Source: Anaerovorax odorimutans DSM 5092 (GTDB taxonomy: Bacteria; Bacillota; Clostridia; Peptostreptococcales; Anaerovoracaceae). Taken from it: DNA of 64,000 bases. This document shows positions 675 through 44,573 of this stretch, one piece after another (position 1 is the first letter of the stretch; each line of letters starts with the position of its first letter). The notes below the pieces were generated by a model. That model did not search any database. It worked only from the letters and a program-made list of their open reading frames with translations, and had not been told where the DNA came from. The stretch spans positions 1 to 64,000 of the forward strand of contig NZ_KE384518.1 of the NCBI RefSeq assembly GCF_000426305.1. The letters are read 5' to 3'. The position numbers were made by a program, and so were the translations under genes.

Positions 675-1454
675 CTAATCTTTAAAATAATTTTCTACAT
701 ACAATCTTAACTTTCTCAACGCTGCAGCATGAATTTGTGAGATACGCGGCTCACTAACATCCATAACCCTTGAAATTTCTTTCATGCTTAGCTCTTTCCT
801 GTAATATAAAGAAACAACCAATTGTTCCTTTTCCCTTAACGATTTTACTGCTTCATTCAATATTTCTGAAAGCTCATTTCTTTCTAAGTTTCGAGCCGGA
901 ATATGATCAGTCTGAGATTCTATAAGCTGATCTGAAATAAAATTTGTTTGAAGACTATCCATTAAAGTATCTAATGACAATAAATGATATAGATTTGTAT
1001 CACCCAATGCTTTTAAATACTTGTCAAGGCTCATTCCTAAATAATCAGCAATTTCTTTATCCTTAGGATATCTGGCAAGCTTAGAAAACAATTCATTATA
1101 TGCTTTGTCAATATCTTTACCTATCTTGCGCACACTCCTGGGAACCCAATCCTGCTTTCTTGCAATATCAATAATAGTTCCTCTTATTCTTAGAGAAGCA
1201 TAACTTTCAAACTTTACATTTTTAGAGGCATCAAATTTATCTATTGCCCCCATTAAAGCTATAATTCCTTCATTAATCATATCTTCTATATCAGTAAAAC
1301 TTACATAAACCCCTCTCATCTGCATAGCAATAGTTTTTACAATATAGCTATATCTAATTACTAGCTCTTGCTTAAGCTTTTCTTCTTTGGTCTCCCTATA
1401 AATCGAAAATAATTCCTCATTTGTTTTAGACTCTAATTCACTGGATAGAAGCAT
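675..1454 (-). CDS. fliA: RNA polymerase sigma factor for flagellar operon (sigma28/FliA/SigD family)
   Basis: The 259-aa length is typical of sigma28. Region 2 is recognisable (EDMINEGIIALMGAIDKFD, then FESYASLRIRGTIIDIARKQDWVPRSVR, about residues 55-110), as is the region 4 helix-turn-helix (LSMKEISRVMDVSEPRISQIHAAALRKLR, about 220-250). It directs transcription of late flagellar and chemotaxis genes and is held by the anti-sigma factor FlgM, which is encoded on the opposite strand at 13.4 kb. It lies 17 bp after flhA, where other Firmicutes have flhF and flhG in between. Likely target promoters are listed before cheA and flgM. Confidence 0.95.
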   Translation of the reverse strand: MLLSSELESKTNEELFSIYRETKEEKLKQELVIRYSYIVKTIAMQMRGVYVSFTDIEDMINEGIIALMGAIDKFDASKNVKFESYASLRIRGTIIDIARKQDWVPRSVRKIGKDIDKAYNELFSKLARYPKDKEIADYLGMSLDKYLKALGDTNLYHLLSLDTLMDSLQTNFISDQLIESQTDHIPARNLERNELSEILNEAVKSLREKEQLVVSLYYRKELSMKEISRVMDVSEPRISQIHAAALRKLRLYVENYFKD

Positions 1455-1471
1455 AAATCACCCTCACATTT

Positions 1472-3526
1472 TTAAACAACAATATTTCCTACTGCTTGAA
1501 TTTGTATATTGTTTGCAATCTCTCCAAAAGATAGGACATACAAATTTGGATAAAATTGTTCAATCATTCTATAAAAATAAAGACGTATTACATTACTTGT
1601 TAAAATAATCGGAGCCTGTGATAGTTCGGTGAACTTAGGTAATTGCTCTTTCAATTGTCCGATAATGCTCTGCATCACATCAGGACTCATGGCTAAATAT
1701 ACTCCTTGTTCATTTCTTGTCAAACTTGATAAAATCGTTTTTTCTAATTCAGTATCAAGGGTCAATACTCTTAGCTGACCATTTTCACAAAATTTTCTCG
1801 TAATAGTACGTTTTAATGCCATTCTTACATTTTCTATCATAACATCCACATCATTAGTTGCTGCCGAAGAATCTATCAAACTCTCTAAAATTGTAACCAA
1901 ATCCTTTATCGGTACGCCTTCTTTCAGCAGATTAAATAATACCTTTTGAAAATTTCCATAAGAAATTATATTAGGAATTGCTTCCTCAACTAACTCCGGA
2001 GAAATTTTCTTTGTATTTTCTATTAATTGCATAACTTCCGCCCTGGTAAGCAGCTCATGTACATTGCGCTTAATAGTCTCAGACAAATGGGTAAGCATAA
2101 CAGATAATGGATCAATTACGGTATATCCGTATATTTCAGCCAAATCCTTTTTGTCCGATGTAATCCATTTGCTTGGAATACCATATGCAGGCTCTATCGT
2201 ATCGATACCATCAATTTCACCAGTAGGATTAGGCGGTTCAAGGGCCAAATAATAGTCTACTAAAATCTCACCACTGCTTATTTCTTCTCCCTTAATTTTA
2301 ATTACATATTCATTAGTGTTTAAAACTGCACTGTCTCTTAATCTGACAGATGGAACTACGAATCCCATTTCCTGCGCAAACTGTCTTCTGAATATAACAA
2401 TTCTGTTTATTAAACTTCCTCCACTATTTTCATCTACTAAAGGTATTAGACTATAACCAAATTCCATTTCTATAGGTTCTACATTTAGCAACGAGTAAAT
2501 ATTGTTTACATCTTTAAAATATGAATCTTCATCAAATTCTTCCTGCTCATATTCTTGATTCACAATTTCATCTTCAACATTTTGCTTCTTCTCAGCACTT
2601 ATTAACCTTATACCCAAAGAAATTAATATTACAGCAAGTATTATCGGCTGTACAGGAGGTGCTCCCGGAATGAATACCAAAAGTCCGATTATAACGCCCG
2701 ATATTACCAAAACTCTAGGCTGTGATAAAAACTGTTTTGTTACATCCTGATTTAAATTACTCTCTGATACAGACCTTGTTACTATCATACCTGTTGCGGT
2801 GGATATAAGCAGTGCCGGTATTTGTGAAACAAGTCCATCTCCAATTGTAGCAATGGAATATACTTGCAGAACTTCAGAAAATGGCATATTACTTTGCACA
2901 ATACCTATGATTGTACCTGCAACAAAATTAATCAAAGTAATTACGATTGCCATAATAGCATCGCCCTTTACAATCTTTGTTGCACCATCCATAGCCCCGT
3001 AAAAATCTGCTTCTTTTTCAATTTTATGTCTTCGTTCTCTAGCTTGTTCTTCTGTAATCAATCCGGAACTAAGGTCTGCGTCAATTGCCATCTGCTTTCC
3101 TGGCATAGCATCTAAAGTAAATCTGGCTGCTACTTCTGCAACACGTTCAGCTCCTTTAGTAATTACTATAAATTGTACCAATACAATTATTAGAAATATA
3201 ATAACACCAACTACTACATTCCCCTGAAGTACAAAACTTCCAAAAGTTTTAATAACTTGACCCGCTTCACCCTGCTTAGTCAAAATCAATCTGGTTGAAG
3301 AAACATTAAGCGCAAGCCTAAACAAAGTGGTAATCAAAAGAAGCGATGGGAATATGGAAAATTCCAACGTTTCACTTATGTACATTGTAGTCAATAATAT
3401 TATTAAAGATATTGTGATGCTAATAATAAACATCATATCTAATGCAAAAGGGTTAAGAGGAATTATTAATAACAAAACGACAATAATTACAAATATAGCC
3501 ACAGTGTTACTAAATATTTTTTTCAT
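1472..3526 (-). CDS. flhA: Flagellar type III export gate protein FlhA
   Basis: The 684-aa protein has the FlhA layout: about eight N-terminal membrane helices in the first 300 residues, the conserved cytoplasmic loop (GAERVAEVAARFTLDAMPGKQ and AIDADLSSGLI, about residues 125-155), and a large soluble C-terminal domain that docks export substrates and chaperones. FlhA forms the nonameric ring of the export gate and couples proton flow to export. The gene sits directly after flgB and before fliA, away from the flhB/fliPQR cluster at 23-26 kb. The start ATG is preceded by CGGAGAT. Confidence 0.97.
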   Translation of the reverse strand: MKKIFSNTVAIFVIIVVLLLIIPLNPFALDMMFIISITISLIILLTTMYISETLEFSIFPSLLLITTLFRLALNVSSTRLILTKQGEAGQVIKTFGSFVLQGNVVVGVIIFLIIVLVQFIVITKGAERVAEVAARFTLDAMPGKQMAIDADLSSGLITEEQARERRHKIEKEADFYGAMDGATKIVKGDAIMAIVITLINFVAGTIIGIVQSNMPFSEVLQVYSIATIGDGLVSQIPALLISTATGMIVTRSVSESNLNQDVTKQFLSQPRVLVISGVIIGLLVFIPGAPPVQPIILAVILISLGIRLISAEKKQNVEDEIVNQEYEQEEFDEDSYFKDVNNIYSLLNVEPIEMEFGYSLIPLVDENSGGSLINRIVIFRRQFAQEMGFVVPSVRLRDSAVLNTNEYVIKIKGEEISSGEILVDYYLALEPPNPTGEIDGIDTIEPAYGIPSKWITSDKKDLAEIYGYTVIDPLSVMLTHLSETIKRNVHELLTRAEVMQLIENTKKISPELVEEAIPNIISYGNFQKVLFNLLKEGVPIKDLVTILESLIDSSAATNDVDVMIENVRMALKRTITRKFCENGQLRVLTLDTELEKTILSSLTRNEQGVYLAMSPDVMQSIIGQLKEQLPKFTELSQAPIILTSNVIRLYFYRMIEQFYPNLYVLSFGEIANNIQIQAVGNIVV

Positions 3527-3538
3527 TTATATCTCCGT

Positions 3539-3931
3539 TTATTCTCCTGTAATAACCATTCTAAGTCTTGTAAACTGATCAGAGATCTGATTTGCCATAT
3601 ATTGATACTGCAATTGGGTTCTGGCCAGTTCTACATTTTCCACATCAACATTTACATTGTTTCCATCCATTCTGATACTCTCATCGTCACTTTGATGTAT
3701 CATCATTTTAGAATTTTGAATTTCCTTTGCAATATCACTGGATTTTGCAAATTGTCCGTTACCAAATTTTGAAAGATTACTTCTCAGTTCATCTTCAAAC
3801 GTTACGTACTTTGCTTTGTATCCAGGAGTATCACCATTCGCCACATTTTCTGATATAACTCTTTGTTTCTGCCATAAAAAATCTAAGCTTTTTTGGCTTA
3901 AATTAATTGCATTATTGTTTAGCCAATCCAT
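3539..3931 (-). CDS. flgB: Flagellar basal-body rod protein FlgB
   Basis: The 130-aa protein has the FlgB signature (ISENVANGDTPGYKAKYVTFEDEL, residues about 26-50) and the short two-helix rod architecture, ending with the helical QYQYMANQISDQFTRLR segment. FlgB is the proximal rod subunit on the MS-ring/FliE junction. In most Firmicutes flgB-flgC-fliE are adjacent; here flgB opens a separate operon with flhA and fliA, while flgC-fliE are 36 kb away. A strong Shine-Dalgarno (AAGGGGAG) precedes the ATG, and a sigmaA promoter lies 53 bp upstream. Confidence 0.95.
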   Translation of the reverse strand: MDWLNNNAINLSQKSLDFLWQKQRVISENVANGDTPGYKAKYVTFEDELRSNLSKFGNGQFAKSSDIAKEIQNSKMMIHQSDDESIRMDGNNVNVDVENVELARTQLQYQYMANQISDQFTRLRMVITGE

Positions 3932-7914: not shown

Positions 7915-7943
7915 ATTATAATAACAATTTATTATAGTTACAA
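7915..7943 (-). promoter_or_regulatory. sigmaA promoter of the SLH protein gene
   Basis: Minus-strand reading gives -35 TTGTAA (7938-7943), a 17-bp spacer and a perfect -10 TATAAT (7915-7920). The -35 overlaps the stop codon of the upstream PilZ gene. The leader to the SLH start is about 70 nt and contains the Shine-Dalgarno AGGATGGGTG just before the ATG. Confidence 0.5.
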
Positions 7944-8669
7944 TTTATTTTTTTCTTCATCTTTATTTTCTTCTTCTTTATTTTTTCCTTCATTTTCTTT
8001 TTCTTTATTTTTTTTCTTTTTATTTCCTAATTGAGTTTGAAATACAAACTGTCTTATAATGCTTTCCTGAGAAGCTTTCATATCAATAAATTGGCATCCA
8101 TAAGAATATACATTATTTTTTTCCTTTGTTTCTCTTAGTATTTTCATTTCCAATATTATAGGAAAACGGCCTAAAGTAAAATCTGTTATTATATGATCCC
8201 CCACCTCTAAGTTTTCATTTTTACCCTCCGTTATAAAACATGCACCCCCTGCGCTGATATCTTTAAATCTAACAGGTATTTTAACAATAGCTCCATTATC
8301 CTTCGGTTCTTTTGAAACAGCTTCTACCACTTCAACATAATTAATACTCACTTTAAAATCTTTACGCCTTTGAACATGCTCCAAAAATTTTAAATGTTCA
8401 ATATGTACACGTCCTTTTAATATATATCCTGCTCTTCCTGTATATAAAAGTATACCTTTATCATCATTGATTATATTTAATCTCACAGGACGGCCTTCTG
8501 TAAGAGTACCTTTTTTAGCCTCTGTAATATCAATATATATAATAGCTCTGTTTTTTTCTTCTTCAATTTTTAATAATTTTCCGGGGATTTTTTGAGTATC
8601 TGCATCATCAAGAATTAGTATTATCTGAGCCCCATCTAATTTATCCGTGTTCCTATTGCTTTCGTTCAT
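7938..8669 (-). CDS. PilZ-domain flagellar brake-like protein (YcgR family)
   Basis: The 243-aa protein has a YcgR-type N-terminal beta domain (about residues 15-95) followed by a PilZ domain (about 98-215). YcgR/MotI proteins bind c-di-GMP and slow the motor through the stator or switch. The DxSxxG motif is intact (DISAGG, residues 137-142). The arginine motif reads QRRKDFK (100-106), so the second Arg of RxxxR is Lys106. The C-terminus is a highly charged Lys/Glu/Asn tail of about 25 residues. It is divergent from cheA with about 100 bp between, so it may be co-regulated with chemotaxis. Whether it still binds c-di-GMP is unclear. Confidence 0.85.
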   Translation of the reverse strand: MNESNRNTDKLDGAQIILILDDADTQKIPGKLLKIEEEKNRAIIYIDITEAKKGTLTEGRPVRLNIINDDKGILLYTGRAGYILKGRVHIEHLKFLEHVQRRKDFKVSINYVEVVEAVSKEPKDNGAIVKIPVRFKDISAGGACFITEGKNENLEVGDHIITDFTLGRFPIILEMKILRETKEKNNVYSYGCQFIDMKASQESIIRQFVFQTQLGNKKKKNKEKENEGKNKEEENKDEEKNKL

Positions 8670-40026: not shown

Positions 40027-40464
40027 TTATCTTCCTATTTCAAGAGCTCTACCTGCCATTAATTTTATTGCATTTAAAGCTGTAACATTTGCATCGTATG
40101 CTCTGGTTGCTGACATACTATCAATAGTCTCTTTTAATATATCCACATTAGGCATCATAACGTAACCCTGCTCATTTGCATCAGGATGATCCGGATTATA
40201 AACGCTTTTAAATGGTCTTTCATCTTCTACAATCTCGCTGATTCTAACACCTGCATTCGAATTTTTATTCATTGCCGTTACTAATTGAGATCTAAAGCTT
40301 CCTGAACCAATTGGCTCAAAAACCACCATTTTCCTACGATAAGGCCCTCCGCCTTCTGTTCTAGTGGTATCAATATTTGCTATATTCTCTGAAATAATAT
40401 CTAATCTTGTTCTTTGTGCTGTCAATGCTGAAGCACTGATGTTCATTGAGTTTAAAAAGGACAC
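40027..40464 (-). CDS. flgC: Flagellar basal-body rod protein FlgC
   Basis: The 145-aa protein has the rod signature SENIANIDTTRTEGGGPYRRK (about residues 29-49) and C-terminal MVMPNVD-like MMPNVDILKETIDSMSATRAYDAN. The start is GTG 40462-40464. It is the first gene of the 19-kb operon, with a leader carrying a c-di-GMP riboswitch. flgB, its usual partner, is elsewhere (3.5 kb). Confidence 0.96.
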   Translation of the reverse strand: MSFLNSMNISASALTAQRTRLDIISENIANIDTTRTEGGGPYRRKMVVFEPIGSGSFRSQLVTAMNKNSNAGVRISEIVEDERPFKSVYNPDHPDANEQGYVMMPNVDILKETIDSMSATRAYDANVTALNAIKLMAGRALEIGR

Positions 40465-40526
40465 TTATCACACACCCTGCCTTTCGTTACATTTTATATT
40501 ATTCAATTACCAAAATAGTTAAATAT

Positions 40527-40563
40527 ATTTTACATTTATCGACAATGTTTTGCAAGCATTTTG
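40527..40563 (-). promoter_or_regulatory. Possible internal promoter(s) before flgC, downstream of riboswitch terminator
   Basis: Minus strand: TTGCAA (40550-40555), 17-bp spacer, TAAAAT (40527-40532) fits sigmaA. Interleaved with it, CAAA (40560-40563), 16 bp, GTCGATAA (40536-40543) fits sigma28 at three of four and seven of eight positions. Either would produce flgC mRNA lacking the riboswitch. Confidence 0.45.
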
Positions 40564-40691
40564 TAAAAGTTCTGAATACTTTAGAAACAATTTACACAAA
40601 TTTAACTTAATATTGTTCATATTTTTACAAAATATTAATCCATTTGTTTAATTTAAATAATCTTTCAGTTAAAAGCTTTCAAAATTTGCAC

Positions 40692-40726
40692 AAAAAATAT
40701 TCTCGCACACCTATGCACAAGAATAT
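40692..40726 (-). terminator. Riboswitch expression-platform terminator
   Basis: The arms ATATTCTTGTGCA (40714-40726) and TGTGCGAGAATAT (40697-40709) pair over 13 bp when G-U pairs are allowed, with a short TAGG loop and a following T6 run. It starts about 10 nt after the aptamer, so ligand binding can favour termination before flgC. Confidence 0.8.
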
Positions 40727-40734
40727 ATTCCTGT

Positions 40735-40819
40735 ATCATTGGCGGCATGGCAATCATAGCATAATAGCCTTAGACCCATTGCTTTGCGTCCTAATTTTTC
40801 AATTAGTTTGCCTTTTTCA
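40735..40819 (-). ncRNA. Class I cyclic-di-GMP riboswitch (GEMM-I)
   Basis: The minus strand contains the conserved blocks in order: GGCAAAC, a stem CUAAUU/AAUUAG closed by a GAAA tetraloop, GGACGCAAAGC, GGUCUAAGGC, and the tetraloop-receptor arm ending UUGCCAUGCCGCC; outer AUUG/CAAU can close P1. A terminator follows directly. The position before a flagellar operon is that of the C. difficile Cd1 OFF switch, in which c-di-GMP causes early termination and loss of motility. Confidence 0.9.
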
Positions 40820-40863
40820 ATTTATAAAATATAATATCTATTTTAACGCTTTATTACTTTACT

Positions 40864-40891
40864 ATTATATAAATTAATGAATAAATGTCAA
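40864..40891 (-). promoter_or_regulatory. sigmaA promoter of the flagellar operon
   Basis: Consensus TTGACA (40886-40891) and TATAAT (40864-40869) are separated by 16 bp on the minus strand. The start near 40857 lies about 40 nt before the riboswitch and gives a leader of about 390 nt. Confidence 0.8.
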
Positions 40892-40898
40892 TAGTTTA

Positions 40899-40941
40899 TG
40901 CACAAAATGACATATATCTGCACAAGTTGACAAACTGCACA
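40899..40941. repeat. Three TGCACA direct repeats upstream of the flagellar promoter
   Basis: TGCACA occurs at 40899-40904, 40919-40924 and 40936-40941, i.e. TGTGCA on the operon strand, starting 8 bp upstream of the -35. Steps of 20 and 17 bp place the copies on roughly the same helix face. They could be an operator for an unidentified regulator. Confidence 0.4.
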
Positions 40942-40956
40942 TGTTTTTTACAGCAA

Positions 40957-40991
40957 AAAAAGTACCTTCCATTAAATCAAAGGTACTTTTT
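40957..40991 (-). terminator. Intrinsic terminator after the EF-G-like gene
   Basis: AAAAAGTACCTT (40957-40968) and AAGGTACTTTTT (40980-40991) pair perfectly around an 11-nt loop, with T-tracts on both sides. It ends the EF-G-like transcript before the flagellar promoter. Confidence 0.85.
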
Positions 40992-41016
40992 AAGTATTAA
41001 TATTTATTCATTTTAA

Positions 41017-42981
41017 TTAACGATTAGACTCAATTTCATCTTTATGTTCTTCAATAATTTTTTCTGCCAGAAAAGCAGGTACTTCTTGATATCTTTCAAA
41101 CTTCATGTTAAAACTTCCTCTTGCTTGAGTCATTGAACGAAGAATAATTGCATATTTAAACATTTCTTTTTGGGGTACTTCTGCCAAAACTTTCTGACCG
41201 CCCGATTGTAATGGCTCCATGCCTAAAATTTTACCCCTTCTTTTATTCATATCGCCCATAATATCACCCATGTATTCATCCGGTACTAAAATTTCCACAT
41301 GCATTACGGGTTCAAGAAGAACTGGTTTTGCTTCTACTATTCCTTTTTTAAAAGCTAACGATGCGGCAATTTTAAACGCCATTTCATTTGAATCAACATC
41401 ATGATATGAACCATCATATAGTTCAGCTTTTATATTTACAACTTTATATCCTGCTAAGGGACCTTTTTCCATAGACTCCCTTAAACCTTTTTCTATTGCA
41501 GGTACATAGTTCTTTGGTATTGATCCACCAAATAAGCTCTCCACAAATTCAAAATCCTGATCTGATGGGGAAAATCTAATATGTACATCTCCATATTGTC
41601 CGGCACCTCCGGATTGTTTCTTATGTTTACCTTGAACATCCGATTTCCCTTTAATGGTTTCTCTATATGGAATTTTTTGATCCATAAGCTTTACATTAAC
41701 GCCAAATCTATCTTTTAATTTCGCAATTATAATCCCAATTTGGATTTCTCCTTGACCACCTATTAAAGTTTGGTGGGTTTCATTATTTCTTTCAATTACA
41801 AACGATGGATCTTCTTCCTTTAACTTAGATAAACCTGTGGCAATTTTCTCTTCATCACCTTTATCCACAGCTTCTATTGCCATATATAATGAAGGTTCCG
41901 GAAAGTCAAGAGGCAGATATCTGATCTCATCACTTTTATCACATAAAGTATCCCCAGACAGAGTATGCTGCAGTTTTGAAATAGCAACAATATCTCCAGC
42001 TTCTGCATAATCTAATTCAAGCTGTGTTCTTCCTCTTACAAAAAATAACTTGCCTAGTTTCTCCGGTTTGCCTGTCCTTTCATTTAATACTTCTGTCCCT
42101 GAATTAATTTTCCCTGTAATAACTTTCATCAATGAAATTTTCCCAACAAAAGGGTCTGCAATTGTTTTAAATACAAAAGCGGACATAGGTGCATCTACAA
42201 CAGAGAGTTTCTCAACTTTTTCATTCTTATCATTGAATCCATAGTATGGACCATGTTGATATGGGGTTGGAACATATGTAATGAGAATATCCAAAAGGCC
42301 TTCTATTCCATGACCTAAAGAAACAGCTGAAGAGCATACAGGTACAATACCTCCATCCGAGATACCTTTTACAAGACCTTCTTTAAACTCTTCATCTGTA
42401 AACTCTTCACCACTGAAATATTTTTCCATTAATGAATCATCAGTCATAGCAATGGCTTCTTTTAGTGCTTCATCTATTTCTGCCGAAACAGGATAACTAA
42501 AAGGAATCAAAGTATCTCCAAACTTTTCTTTTAATTCTGCAAAAGTTTTATGAAAATCAAATTCATCTTTATCCCTTTTATTTATAACTATAAATCTTGG
42601 CATTTTATATCTTTCACAAGCTTTCCAAGCATGCTCTGTTCCTACCTGAACACCTGCCCCGGCATCCACTAAGATTACTGCAGCCTCAGAGGCTCTAAGA
42701 GCAGCATTTACTTCTCCTATAAAGTCAAAGTAACCTGGGGTATCAATAAAATTAATTTTGCTGTCTTTCCATTCTACGGGAACAACTGAGGTATTGATTG
42801 AATACCCTTTTTCAATTTCCATCTTATCATAATCGGAAACTGTATTCCCATCTTCAACTTTGCCAATACGGTTTATTACACCTGTGGCAAGTAAAGCGGC
42901 TTCTAGTAATGTAGTTTTCCCACAACCGCCGTGTCCAATAAGTGCAACGTTTCTAATTGTTTCGCTAGTATAGCCTTTCAT
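41017..42981 (-). CDS. EF-G-like translation GTPase
   Basis: The 654-aa protein has the EF-G domain series: G1 GHGGCGKTTL (about residues 16-25), G3 DTPGYFDFIG, G4 NKRD, then EF-Tu-like, ribosomal S5-like (GQYGDVHIRF) and EF-G C-terminal domains. It is somewhat shorter and more divergent than canonical EF-G (about 690 aa) and is not next to rpsL/rpsG, so it is best read as an EF-G paralogue rather than the main translocase. The IS607 relic lies directly upstream. Confidence 0.9.
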   Translation of the reverse strand: MKGYTSETIRNVALIGHGGCGKTTLLEAALLATGVINRIGKVEDGNTVSDYDKMEIEKGYSINTSVVPVEWKDSKINFIDTPGYFDFIGEVNAALRASEAAVILVDAGAGVQVGTEHAWKACERYKMPRFIVINKRDKDEFDFHKTFAELKEKFGDTLIPFSYPVSAEIDEALKEAIAMTDDSLMEKYFSGEEFTDEEFKEGLVKGISDGGIVPVCSSAVSLGHGIEGLLDILITYVPTPYQHGPYYGFNDKNEKVEKLSVVDAPMSAFVFKTIADPFVGKISLMKVITGKINSGTEVLNERTGKPEKLGKLFFVRGRTQLELDYAEAGDIVAISKLQHTLSGDTLCDKSDEIRYLPLDFPEPSLYMAIEAVDKGDEEKIATGLSKLKEEDPSFVIERNNETHQTLIGGQGEIQIGIIIAKLKDRFGVNVKLMDQKIPYRETIKGKSDVQGKHKKQSGGAGQYGDVHIRFSPSDQDFEFVESLFGGSIPKNYVPAIEKGLRESMEKGPLAGYKVVNIKAELYDGSYHDVDSNEMAFKIAASLAFKKGIVEAKPVLLEPVMHVEILVPDEYMGDIMGDMNKRRGKILGMEPLQSGGQKVLAEVPQKEMFKYAIILRSMTQARGSFNMKFERYQEVPAFLAEKIIEEHKDEIESNR

Positions 42982-42984
42982 GTT

Positions 42985-43154
42985 TTGACCTGCTACTCAA
43001 AATATGGACAAATATATACCCATATCGAGAATTTTGTTGCTTCGACCTATATGCTTTCGTATTAGATTTTTCTAATTACTACTCACAAGTTCTTGTATAG
43101 TCCACAACCGTAAATTCCGACCTAGCCAGCCGTACATACTTATAATTTGCTTGA
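42985..43154 (-). other. Possible omegaRNA / right end of the IS607-family relic
   Basis: The 170 nt downstream of the tnpB stop are free of coding potential and rich in short hairpins: TAGA-AAAA-TCTA and ATATGG/CCATAT (43002-43025). In IS605/IS607 elements the TnpB guide RNA is made from the tnpB 3' end and the right end. The exact end, and whether RNA is made, cannot be read from this one copy. The segment also has to contain the EF-G-like gene's promoter or leader. Confidence 0.35.
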
Positions 43155-44321
43155 TTATGCAATTTTATAAGTTTTAGCATCTCTCAAATTAAGACTTGCA
43201 TTATAATCCCTATCCCTTGTATATCCACATTTATCACAAATATAAACTCTATCTGAAAGTTTTAAATCCTTCTTAATACTTCCGCATTGATGGCATATTT
43301 TAGATGATGAATACCATCTGTCTACAATTCTTAATTCAATTCCTAATTCTTTGCATTTTACTTCTAATTTAGTTCTAAATTCATAAAACTTTTGTGAAGC
43401 AACTGCTTTTGAAAGATGTCTATTCTTCATCATACCCTTTATATTTAAATCTTCTATTGTAATATAAGATGGCTTGATTTTTACTATCTCATTAACAATT
43501 TTATTAATATAATCAGTACGAATATTTTCAATTCTTTGATGAAGTTTTTGTACTTTTAGCTTTTGTTTGAATATATTTTGTCTAGCAGCTTCTCCTTTCA
43601 ATTTTTTATTTCTTTGTTTCAAACTTTCATATTTCCTCGAAAGTTTTCTTTGTTCTCTTTTTAATTGCTTCTCTAATTTAATCAATTGTTGTGTTTTATT
43701 AATATTTTTCTTAATTAAACCATTACTGCAGATTGCAAAATCTTTTAAACCTAAATCAATACCTATACCCTCTTTATCAAGAGTAGTTTGATTTATATCA
43801 TTTTCTTCTATCAAAACTGACACATAGTATCTACCAGCTTTATAAGAAACCATTCCACTCTTAATAATTTTATTTGTTGGTATATATCCTTTTTCTTTTA
43901 ATCTAACCCAGCCTAATGTAGGAATTTTTATTCTATGTCTTTCACAAGGAATAATTACTTTTGCATCGGTTTTAACAAAATACATTTTAACATCGGATTT
44001 ATTTTTCTTTTTAAATCTCGGAAATTCACTCTCGTGTTTAAAAAACCTTTTAAATGCTCTATCTGCATTCATAATAGATTGTTTTACTGATTTACTACTA
44101 ACTTCTTTAATCCAAGAATATTCTTGATTCCTTGGAATAAACTCATTATTCAACCATTTTGAAAAATCCATACCTGATACAAACTTCTTTTCTTTTTCAT
44201 AAATTTCTTTGTTGTGAGCTAAATAAAAATTATAAACATATCTGCAAACACCAATTGTTTTATGGATAATTATTTTCTGCTTATTTATTGGATTTATTTC
44301 TGTTTTGTAAGCTTTTAACAA
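43155..44321 (-). CDS. tnpB: TnpB RNA-guided nuclease of IS607 type
   Basis: Start TTG 44319-44321 (LLKAYKTEINP) is chosen because the upstream part of the longer frame overlaps the tnpA C-terminus in another frame; AAGGAA precedes it. The 388-aa protein has the N-terminal helical/wedge part, the RuvC catalytic residues D189 (GIDLGLKDFA), E290 (TIEDLNIKGM) and D372 (RDYNAS), and a zinc ribbon CHQC/CDKC (Cys 343, 346, 362, 365). TnpB cuts DNA using a guide RNA from the element's 3' end. All key residues appear intact although tnpA is dead. Confidence 0.92.
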   Translation of the reverse strand: MLKAYKTEINPINKQKIIIHKTIGVCRYVYNFYLAHNKEIYEKEKKFVSGMDFSKWLNNEFIPRNQEYSWIKEVSSKSVKQSIMNADRAFKRFFKHESEFPRFKKKNKSDVKMYFVKTDAKVIIPCERHRIKIPTLGWVRLKEKGYIPTNKIIKSGMVSYKAGRYYVSVLIEENDINQTTLDKEGIGIDLGLKDFAICSNGLIKKNINKTQQLIKLEKQLKREQRKLSRKYESLKQRNKKLKGEAARQNIFKQKLKVQKLHQRIENIRTDYINKIVNEIVKIKPSYITIEDLNIKGMMKNRHLSKAVASQKFYEFRTKLEVKCKELGIELRIVDRWYSSSKICHQCGSIKKDLKLSDRVYICDKCGYTRDRDYNASLNLRDAKTYKIA

Positions 44322-44573
44322 TTTCCTTATCTTCCTTTGTCTGTTTTTTATACTTTCTAAGCCCGTAAATCTCACAAGAAAAAACATGTATTATTGATAT
44401 TAAATCGTTTACTAATTCTTCTTGCAGTGGTAGTTTTTAATTATTAACAATAATAATTTCTACTCCGTTAAACATTAAAAACCTTTCACTTTACCTTCGT
44501 TATCCCATCACTGACGTGTTTTAGCAGATACACCTATCATTTCTTCAAACTCTTGTGGTTTATATATATTCAT
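44281..44573 (-). pseudogene. tnpA: IS607-family serine recombinase TnpA, internally deleted
   Basis: The minus strand first encodes a MerR-like N-terminus (MNIYKPQEFEEMIGVSAKT, then RQ-stop-WDNEGKVKGF), where TGA replaces the Arg codon of the family QRW motif. After a frame change it continues with the family C-terminus (VEIIIVNN, ELVNDLISIIHVFS, IYGLRKYK) to a stop at 44281. The catalytic serine-recombinase middle (roughly 130 residues) is missing, and there is a second internal stop after VNN. The tail overlaps tnpB by about 40 nt, as in intact IS607. Confidence 0.8.

Follow-up and report, generated by a model that had tools for sequence, protein, structure and literature searches.

On the minus strand of the window, by which we mean the whole 64,000-nucleotide stretch of DNA that was analysed, flgC stands at the head of a long run of flagellar genes and behind a leader with recognizable regulatory parts, while flgB, flhA and fliA lie elsewhere. 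The features, in the direction of transcription, are as follows.

40919-40932 (-): box 1 of a tandem direct repeat, TGTCAACTTGTGCA, which holds the LytTR-like 9-mer TCAACTTGT
40899-40912 (-): box 2 of the repeat, TGTCATTTTGTGCA, with two changes from the consensus, starting 20 bp after the start of box 1
40864-40891 (-): sigma-A promoter, TTGACA (40891-40886), 16 bp, TATAAT (40869-40864), 12 of 12 positions to consensus
40738-40822 (-): c-di-GMP-I (GEMM-I) aptamer, P strand GGCA 40812-40809, A strand UGCC 40747-40744
40705-40746 (-): predicted antiterminator, GCCGCC 40746-40741 pairing with 40711-40708 and 40706-40705 and closing an inner hairpin 40739-40713
40692-40726 (-): intrinsic terminator, stem 40726-40697 with 13 pairs and a loop of 4, U-tract 40696-40692
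40465-40691 (-): AT-rich leader from the terminator to flgC
40027-40464 (-): flgC, first gene of the operon, GTG start, TIGR01395
21710-40464 (-): controlled operon of 23 ORFs, flgC to orf472, probably co-transcribed
3539-3931 (-): flgB, outside the operon, the genome's one match over the cut-off
1472-3526 (-): flhA, export-gate gene, outside the operon
675-1454 (-): fliA/sigD, sigma-28 family, outside the operon

An earlier reading of this DNA from its letters alone (the sequence-only reading) had proposed a consensus sigma-A promoter, a full GEMM-I aptamer and a terminator, in that order, before flgC, and each of these parts and their order on the minus strand were confirmed. The Rfam RF01051 search that it called for gives a match at 40822-40738 (-) of 80.8 bits (E 2.6e-14) over the full length of the model (positions 1-87), against a gathering score of 35. 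Among five promoter-like sites in 40300-41100 (shuffle mean 5.3) the flgC promoter is the only one with 12 of 12 positions, and the same interval holds two terminator-like sites against a shuffle mean of 0.3. The distance from aptamer to terminator stem, estimated earlier at about 10 nt, measures 11 nt. The end of the -10 lies 41 nt before the aptamer, which is thus in the 5' leader behind the promoter; transcription of flgC probably starts near 40857. Judged by its sequence, the element is a class I c-di-GMP riboswitch, a type that is well documented in clostridia.

As to ligand supply, the genome has 21 GGDEF matches and also five class I and three class II c-di-GMP aptamers. The one substitution G20A is enough for a class I GEMM aptamer to accept cGAMP (excerpt of PMC6274999), and the flgC aptamer might accordingly be a GEMM-Ib variant whose ligand is cGAMP and not c-di-GMP. 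We consider this very improbable: RF01051 is the best model, and in the Rfam alignment the aptamer keeps the conserved GGC of the consensus.

Two candidate explanations of the AT-rich part of the leader were tried and rejected. A decayed flgB left no remnant there, tblastn of the leader with FlgB of nine relatives and the genome's own FlgB returning only short chance pieces (best E 0.08). The leader likewise has no counterpart of the 154-bp invertible flagellar switch of C. difficile with its 21-bp repeats, since the longest inverted repeat with both arms in 40465-40691 is 11 bp and not about 21.

The 23 ORFs counted from flgC to 21710, where the sequence-only reading had spoken of about 24 genes, run in the order flgC, fliE, fliF, fliG, fliH, fliI, fliJ, fliK, flgD, TIGR02530, flgE/G-like, flbD, motA-like, motB-like, fliM, fliY, cheY-like, fliO, fliP, fliQ, fliR, flhB and orf472; fliH, flgD, motA, motB, fliO and flgE/G are among the names taken from best matches under the curated cut-off. 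A scan of the minus strand found a single terminator-like site inside the operon, a weak one at 24764-24747. The statement that export gate, motor and cheY are all under the leader's control holds for fliO, fliP, fliQ, fliR, flhB and the motA-, motB- and cheY-like genes but not for the export-gate gene flhA, whereas the exclusion of flgB (3931-3539, -) was correct. The flgB gene sits with flhA and fliA in a second cluster, also on the minus strand, which is cut by the edge of the contig; the absence of flhA and fliA from the operon had gone unmentioned, as had the tandem boxes. With fliA in another cluster, the flgC leader would have no direct control of the sigma factor; an indirect link to sigma-28 through export and an anti-sigma factor is possible. 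The sigma-28 promoter consensus is TAAA-N13-17-CCGATA, and this pattern has 0 matches in the window against 0.75 expected, a count that says little. Upstream of the flgB cluster, and adjoining an S-layer-homology protein, a protein with a PilZ domain (a c-di-GMP binding fold) is encoded at 7938-8669 (-), possibly a second c-di-GMP input on motility.

That ligand binding stops transcription had been argued earlier from the closeness of the terminator to the aptamer. This reasoning does not suffice because an OFF switch needs an antiterminator; the direction itself finds support in a predicted antiterminator, although the prediction is sensitive to the energy set. Growing transcripts were folded from the probable start at 40857. 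With Turner energies the aptamer helix P1 (GGCA 40812-40809 with UGCC 40747-40744) forms first, and on emergence of the 3' arm of the terminator GCCGCC 40746-40741 pairs with 40711-40705 while the 5' arm of the terminator folds on itself. For a transcript ending at 40697 the free fold is the antiterminator, at -37.1 kcal/mol and with a P1 probability of 0.018, compared with -34.1 kcal/mol when P1 is forced and -33.9 kcal/mol when P1 and terminator are both forced.

As a control for A-strand capture, the base pairs of the terminator were permuted 400 times and the products folded, with Turner energies only. At end 40697 capture is 0.989 for the real terminator and 0.143 on average for the permuted ones, none of which (0/400) captures as strongly, while P1 is equally low in 2/400. 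Likewise at end 40701 none of the 400 equals the real terminator in capture and six do so in low P1. The controls come closer at end 40705, where 7/400 are equal in capture and 35/400 in low P1.

Three energy sets (Turner 2004, Andronescu 2007 and Langdon 2018; 37 C, start 40857) give the antiterminator probabilities of 0.95, 0.67 and 0.21, respectively, at 40702 and of 0.94, 0.36 and 0.02 at 40697. Before the terminator arm is made (ends 40738 and 40718) P1 stands at 0.66-0.76, 0.22-0.31 and 0.04-0.06 in the same order, so that P1 of the free aptamer would be weak without ligand in the latter two sets; in the construct used for comparing relatives' leaders it is 0.87. By end 40688, with the U-tract out and no ligand, the terminator has reached 0.89, 0.96 and 1.00, and since it wins in all three sets the decision of the switch would have to be kinetic. 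An antiterminator that uses the aptamer A strand is therefore a prediction that depends on the energy set, with one of the three giving it little support.

The same figures bear on whether the leader switches at all. In a fixed attenuator the aptamer would bind c-di-GMP but termination would hardly change, the terminator winning with or without ligand, as it does without ligand at 40697 in the Langdon set and at 40688 in every set. Because of the polymerase footprint it is the shorter free transcript that matters, and at 40702 the antiterminator dominates in two of the three sets; this, together with the failure of all permuted terminators to match the A-strand capture at 40697 and 40701, makes a fixed attenuator unlikely in our judgement. 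An ON switch, in which ligand favours read-through, we regard as barely credible: riboswitches whose cyclic-dinucleotide aptamers are highly homologous may act in either direction (excerpt of PMC9262584), but here a single fold can hold both the aptamer and the terminator, which have no overlap, and competition with the terminator comes from the very strand that the ligand-bound aptamer needs.

OFF is the likeliest direction of the flgC-leader switch. RNA polymerase would start at the sigma-A promoter and then make the aptamer. With c-di-GMP bound, P1 would be held, the A strand would not be free, and the terminator would form, ending transcription about 161-166 nt from the start. With no c-di-GMP, the A strand would capture the terminator arm, polymerase would pass and the genes from flgC to flhB would be expressed.

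The sequence-only reading had likened the position to that of the C. difficile Cd1 switch. There, c-di-GMP binding to a class I riboswitch in the flgB leader leads to termination and fewer early flagellar transcripts (excerpt of PMC6200980), the antiterminator consists of strands T, A and H and the terminator of T and H, and the antiterminator is transiently stable and refolds later to the terminator (excerpt of PMC9262584). The early operon of C. difficile includes sigD, the level of which tracks c-di-GMP (excerpt of PMC5386303). The flgC leader is like Cd1 (Cdi-1-3) in its class I aptamer, early flagellar operon and downstream terminator; the likeliest direction is OFF in both, and the antiterminator predicted here with Turner energies would likewise be built from the aptamer A strand and terminator arms. 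Class, part order and the parallel as such hold. The placement of flgB and sigD differs: an operon of the Cd1 type begins with flgB and holds sigD, whereas here flgC comes first and flgB (3931-3539), flhA and fliA (1454-675) are elsewhere.

Aptamers at this place recur in other Bacillota. Of 20 loci scanned, 11 carry an aptamer of class I or of the sister GGC family, nine of them upstream of flgB-flgC and two between fliE and fliF. Among 61 genomes (this one included), 28 have a FlgC match and three, again including this one, an aptamer just upstream of flgC or flgB-flgC; FlgC was found in 100 of 148 genomes of the order, and in that draw at least five genomes of one genus have, among the matches listed, an aptamer 729-756 bases upstream of flgC. 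The 42 of 80 named loci that were examined represent 41 genomes, 17 of them with a class I match. The flgC-leader riboswitch is thus a member of a known, recurrent kind. The two c-di-GMP-I aptamers that lie between fliE and fliF, within a flagellar operon and not in its leader, are at L093 2362-2448 and L094 1474-1559, in two genomes of family f12 (G047, G058).

Riboswitches in flgB leaders were found in Sedimentibacter (L086, L090), Tissierellia (L061, L072), other Bacillota (L060, L084, L088) and also in two family members, G007 (L091) and G022 (L092), the last of which best fits the sister family RF03167. Like the window leader, these place the aptamer directly upstream of an early flagellar operon, there flgB-flgC; unlike it, they have flgB in the operon, and their expression platforms differ in sequence and spacing in the eight leaders compared (L061, L072, L084, L086, L088, L090, L091 and L092). 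With the window's FlgB as the only query, so that distant homologues may be missed, flgB lies near flgC in 18 of 92 loci at E below 1e-8 and in one more, L102, at 5e-8. In the remaining loci none was found with that query. These include the closest FlgC relatives read (G056, L011 and L012; 70-73% identical), where flgC follows a gene read by eye as cheY, whereas flgC of the window opens its operon.

Folding of eight relatives' leaders (L060 was excluded because the contig end cuts its aptamer) gave downstream capture of the A strand in five, L061, L086, L088, L090 and L091, as computed without a shuffled control, and no clear capture in three, L072 (at most 0.49), L084 and L092. The rows of L084, L092 and L091 are weak either way, since the P1 partner was not properly found in L084 and L092 and P1 reaches at most 0.53 in L091. 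No relative with this particular flgC leader was found from which covariation could be read. The motif TGTCGAA, which we take to be the Spo0A box, occurs at most 80 bases upstream of the aptamer in four of these eight leaders (L072, L084, L088, L090), near the promoter of the flgB riboswitch, and is absent from the other four (L061, L086, L091, L092).

Upstream of the flgC promoter, the 9-mers TCAACTTGT and GCAACTTGT of the two boxes are separated by an 11-bp spacer, and the second ends 10 bp upstream of the -35. A genome-wide search with the pattern TGTCAWNTTGTGCA, allowing one mismatch, gave 21 matches against five for the reversed control. Ten of the 21 contribute to six tandem sites, each with a period of exactly 20 bp, and the other 11 stand alone, no second box having been found in the stretches fetched around them; this search would miss any tandem pair in which each box is off by two mismatches or more. 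Across the window and 138 fetched loci (1.02 Mb) the tandem pair was found in stretches of this genome only, the fetched stretches of the flgB-leader relatives included in that count having none of the flgC type, and 20 permuted motifs gave 0 tandem pairs in the window and loci L091 and up, a set without the named loci. The notable feature is the pairing of the boxes, since neither TGCACAA nor the 14-mer in a looser form is enriched in the window: TGCACAA occurs 10 times against 11.4 expected, with four of the ten copies in 40687-40925 and two of these in or beside the terminator, and the 14-mer with two mismatches occurs 14 times against 10.7 expected.

The six tandem sites lie before flgC, a chemotaxis receptor gene (C4), the gene of a Kelch/Big_2 secreted protein (C12), agrB (C13), the gene of a 4Fe-4S membrane protein (C3, 79605) and that of a copper-amine-oxidase-N protein (C8). 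In four of the six, the best-scoring -35 begins at a distance of 41 bases from the start of box 1; at the agrB site distances of 41 and 42 score equally, and at the Kelch site a -35 beginning at 45 scores better. No c-di-GMP aptamer reaches the gathering score in the fetched stretches at the five other tandem-box promoters.

According to the excerpt of PMC6193735, LytTR repeats are 9-mers that are usually separated by 12 bp and less often by 11 or 13, and they strongly favour a position 10 bp upstream of the -35; ACCACTTAT is one example. The flgC boxes resemble LytTR direct-repeat promoters (LRS, VirR and AgrA type) in their 9-mers, 11-bp spacer and 10 bp to the -35, all within the ranges of that excerpt; unlike those promoters, one candidate site here precedes a c-di-GMP riboswitch. 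A literature search (titles and abstract openings) found, among the matches listed, no report of LytTR boxes before a flagellar c-di-GMP riboswitch.

The agr locus on contig C13 encodes AgrB (PF04647) and has a short ORF that looks AgrD-like by eye; the opposite strand encodes a GHKL kinase and a LytTR-domain response regulator (agrA). Because agrB is among the targets and the LytTR-type agrA lies beside it, AgrA is the likeliest regulator of the tandem boxes, as judged from this gene context. The boxes might instead belong to another regulator or to a repressor, which we hold to be the lesser prospect though a sizeable one. Against this, agr loci often autoregulate, and one of the six sites drives agrB. 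The placement 10 bp upstream of the -35 also fits activation (excerpt of PMC6193735).

Our preferred reading, to which we give a probability of roughly 0.7, is that the leader is a transcription-terminating OFF riboswitch whose promoter is switched on through the tandem boxes by a LytTR regulator, most likely AgrA. The shared sites suggest that this response regulator, probably AgrA of the C13 locus, would activate the promoter, and the operon would be expressed in the presence of the agr peptide signal and at low c-di-GMP. An agrA mutant of C. difficile R20291 has no flagella, and its Cd1 leader transcript is down 5.3-fold; flagella did not return on complementation, and more than one route was considered, with fliA and flgM as possible direct targets or c-di-GMP raised via lower phosphodiesterases (excerpt of PMC3754575). 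Set against what that excerpt says of agr control in R20291, a candidate direct site is visible here in the flgC promoter.

At about even odds, in our estimate, some 240 bp would form a two-signal gate in which an Agr-type LytTR regulator directly activates initiation and a c-di-GMP riboswitch stops elongation, with sigma-28 left out. If so, what is known in clostridia as a network connection between agr and flagella would in this lineage consist of direct contact at a promoter. Whether a cell swims or settles is influenced by peptide quorum sensing as well as by c-di-GMP. Here the two inputs seem to converge on a single short leader, at the successive steps of initiation and termination, so that one reporter would be enough to test their integration. 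The riboswitch would sit on the structural operon, which lacks fliA and flgB, and the late-gene sigma factor would be uncoupled from it. The riboswitch itself is of a known kind; what makes it a variant is the putative Agr-type promoter in front of it and an operon from which flgB, flhA and fliA are missing.

Other structured RNAs were noted in the same genome. A RAGATH-18 RNA (RF03064, 63.4 bits) lies in the window at 43034-43108 (-), 46 nt downstream of a TnpB gene at 43155-44387 (-), with a second copy at C3:99425-99496. Guide RNAs of IS607 TnpBs derived from RAGATH-18 are known and co-occur only with IS607, according to the excerpt of PMC11061315; the TnpB of the window scores 303.8 bits with the NCBIfam IS200 model and 171.7 bits with the IS607 model, both under their cut-offs. 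Tandem class I c-di-GMP aptamers (L103 1082-1169 and 1308-1395, -) precede a gene read by eye as prepilin peptidase-like. The aptamer at L105 1866-1950 better fits c-di-GMP-I-GGC (RF03167) and ends just before the gene of a secreted protein, and may therefore act on translation; it is followed by a 6S RNA match at L105 3084-3262.
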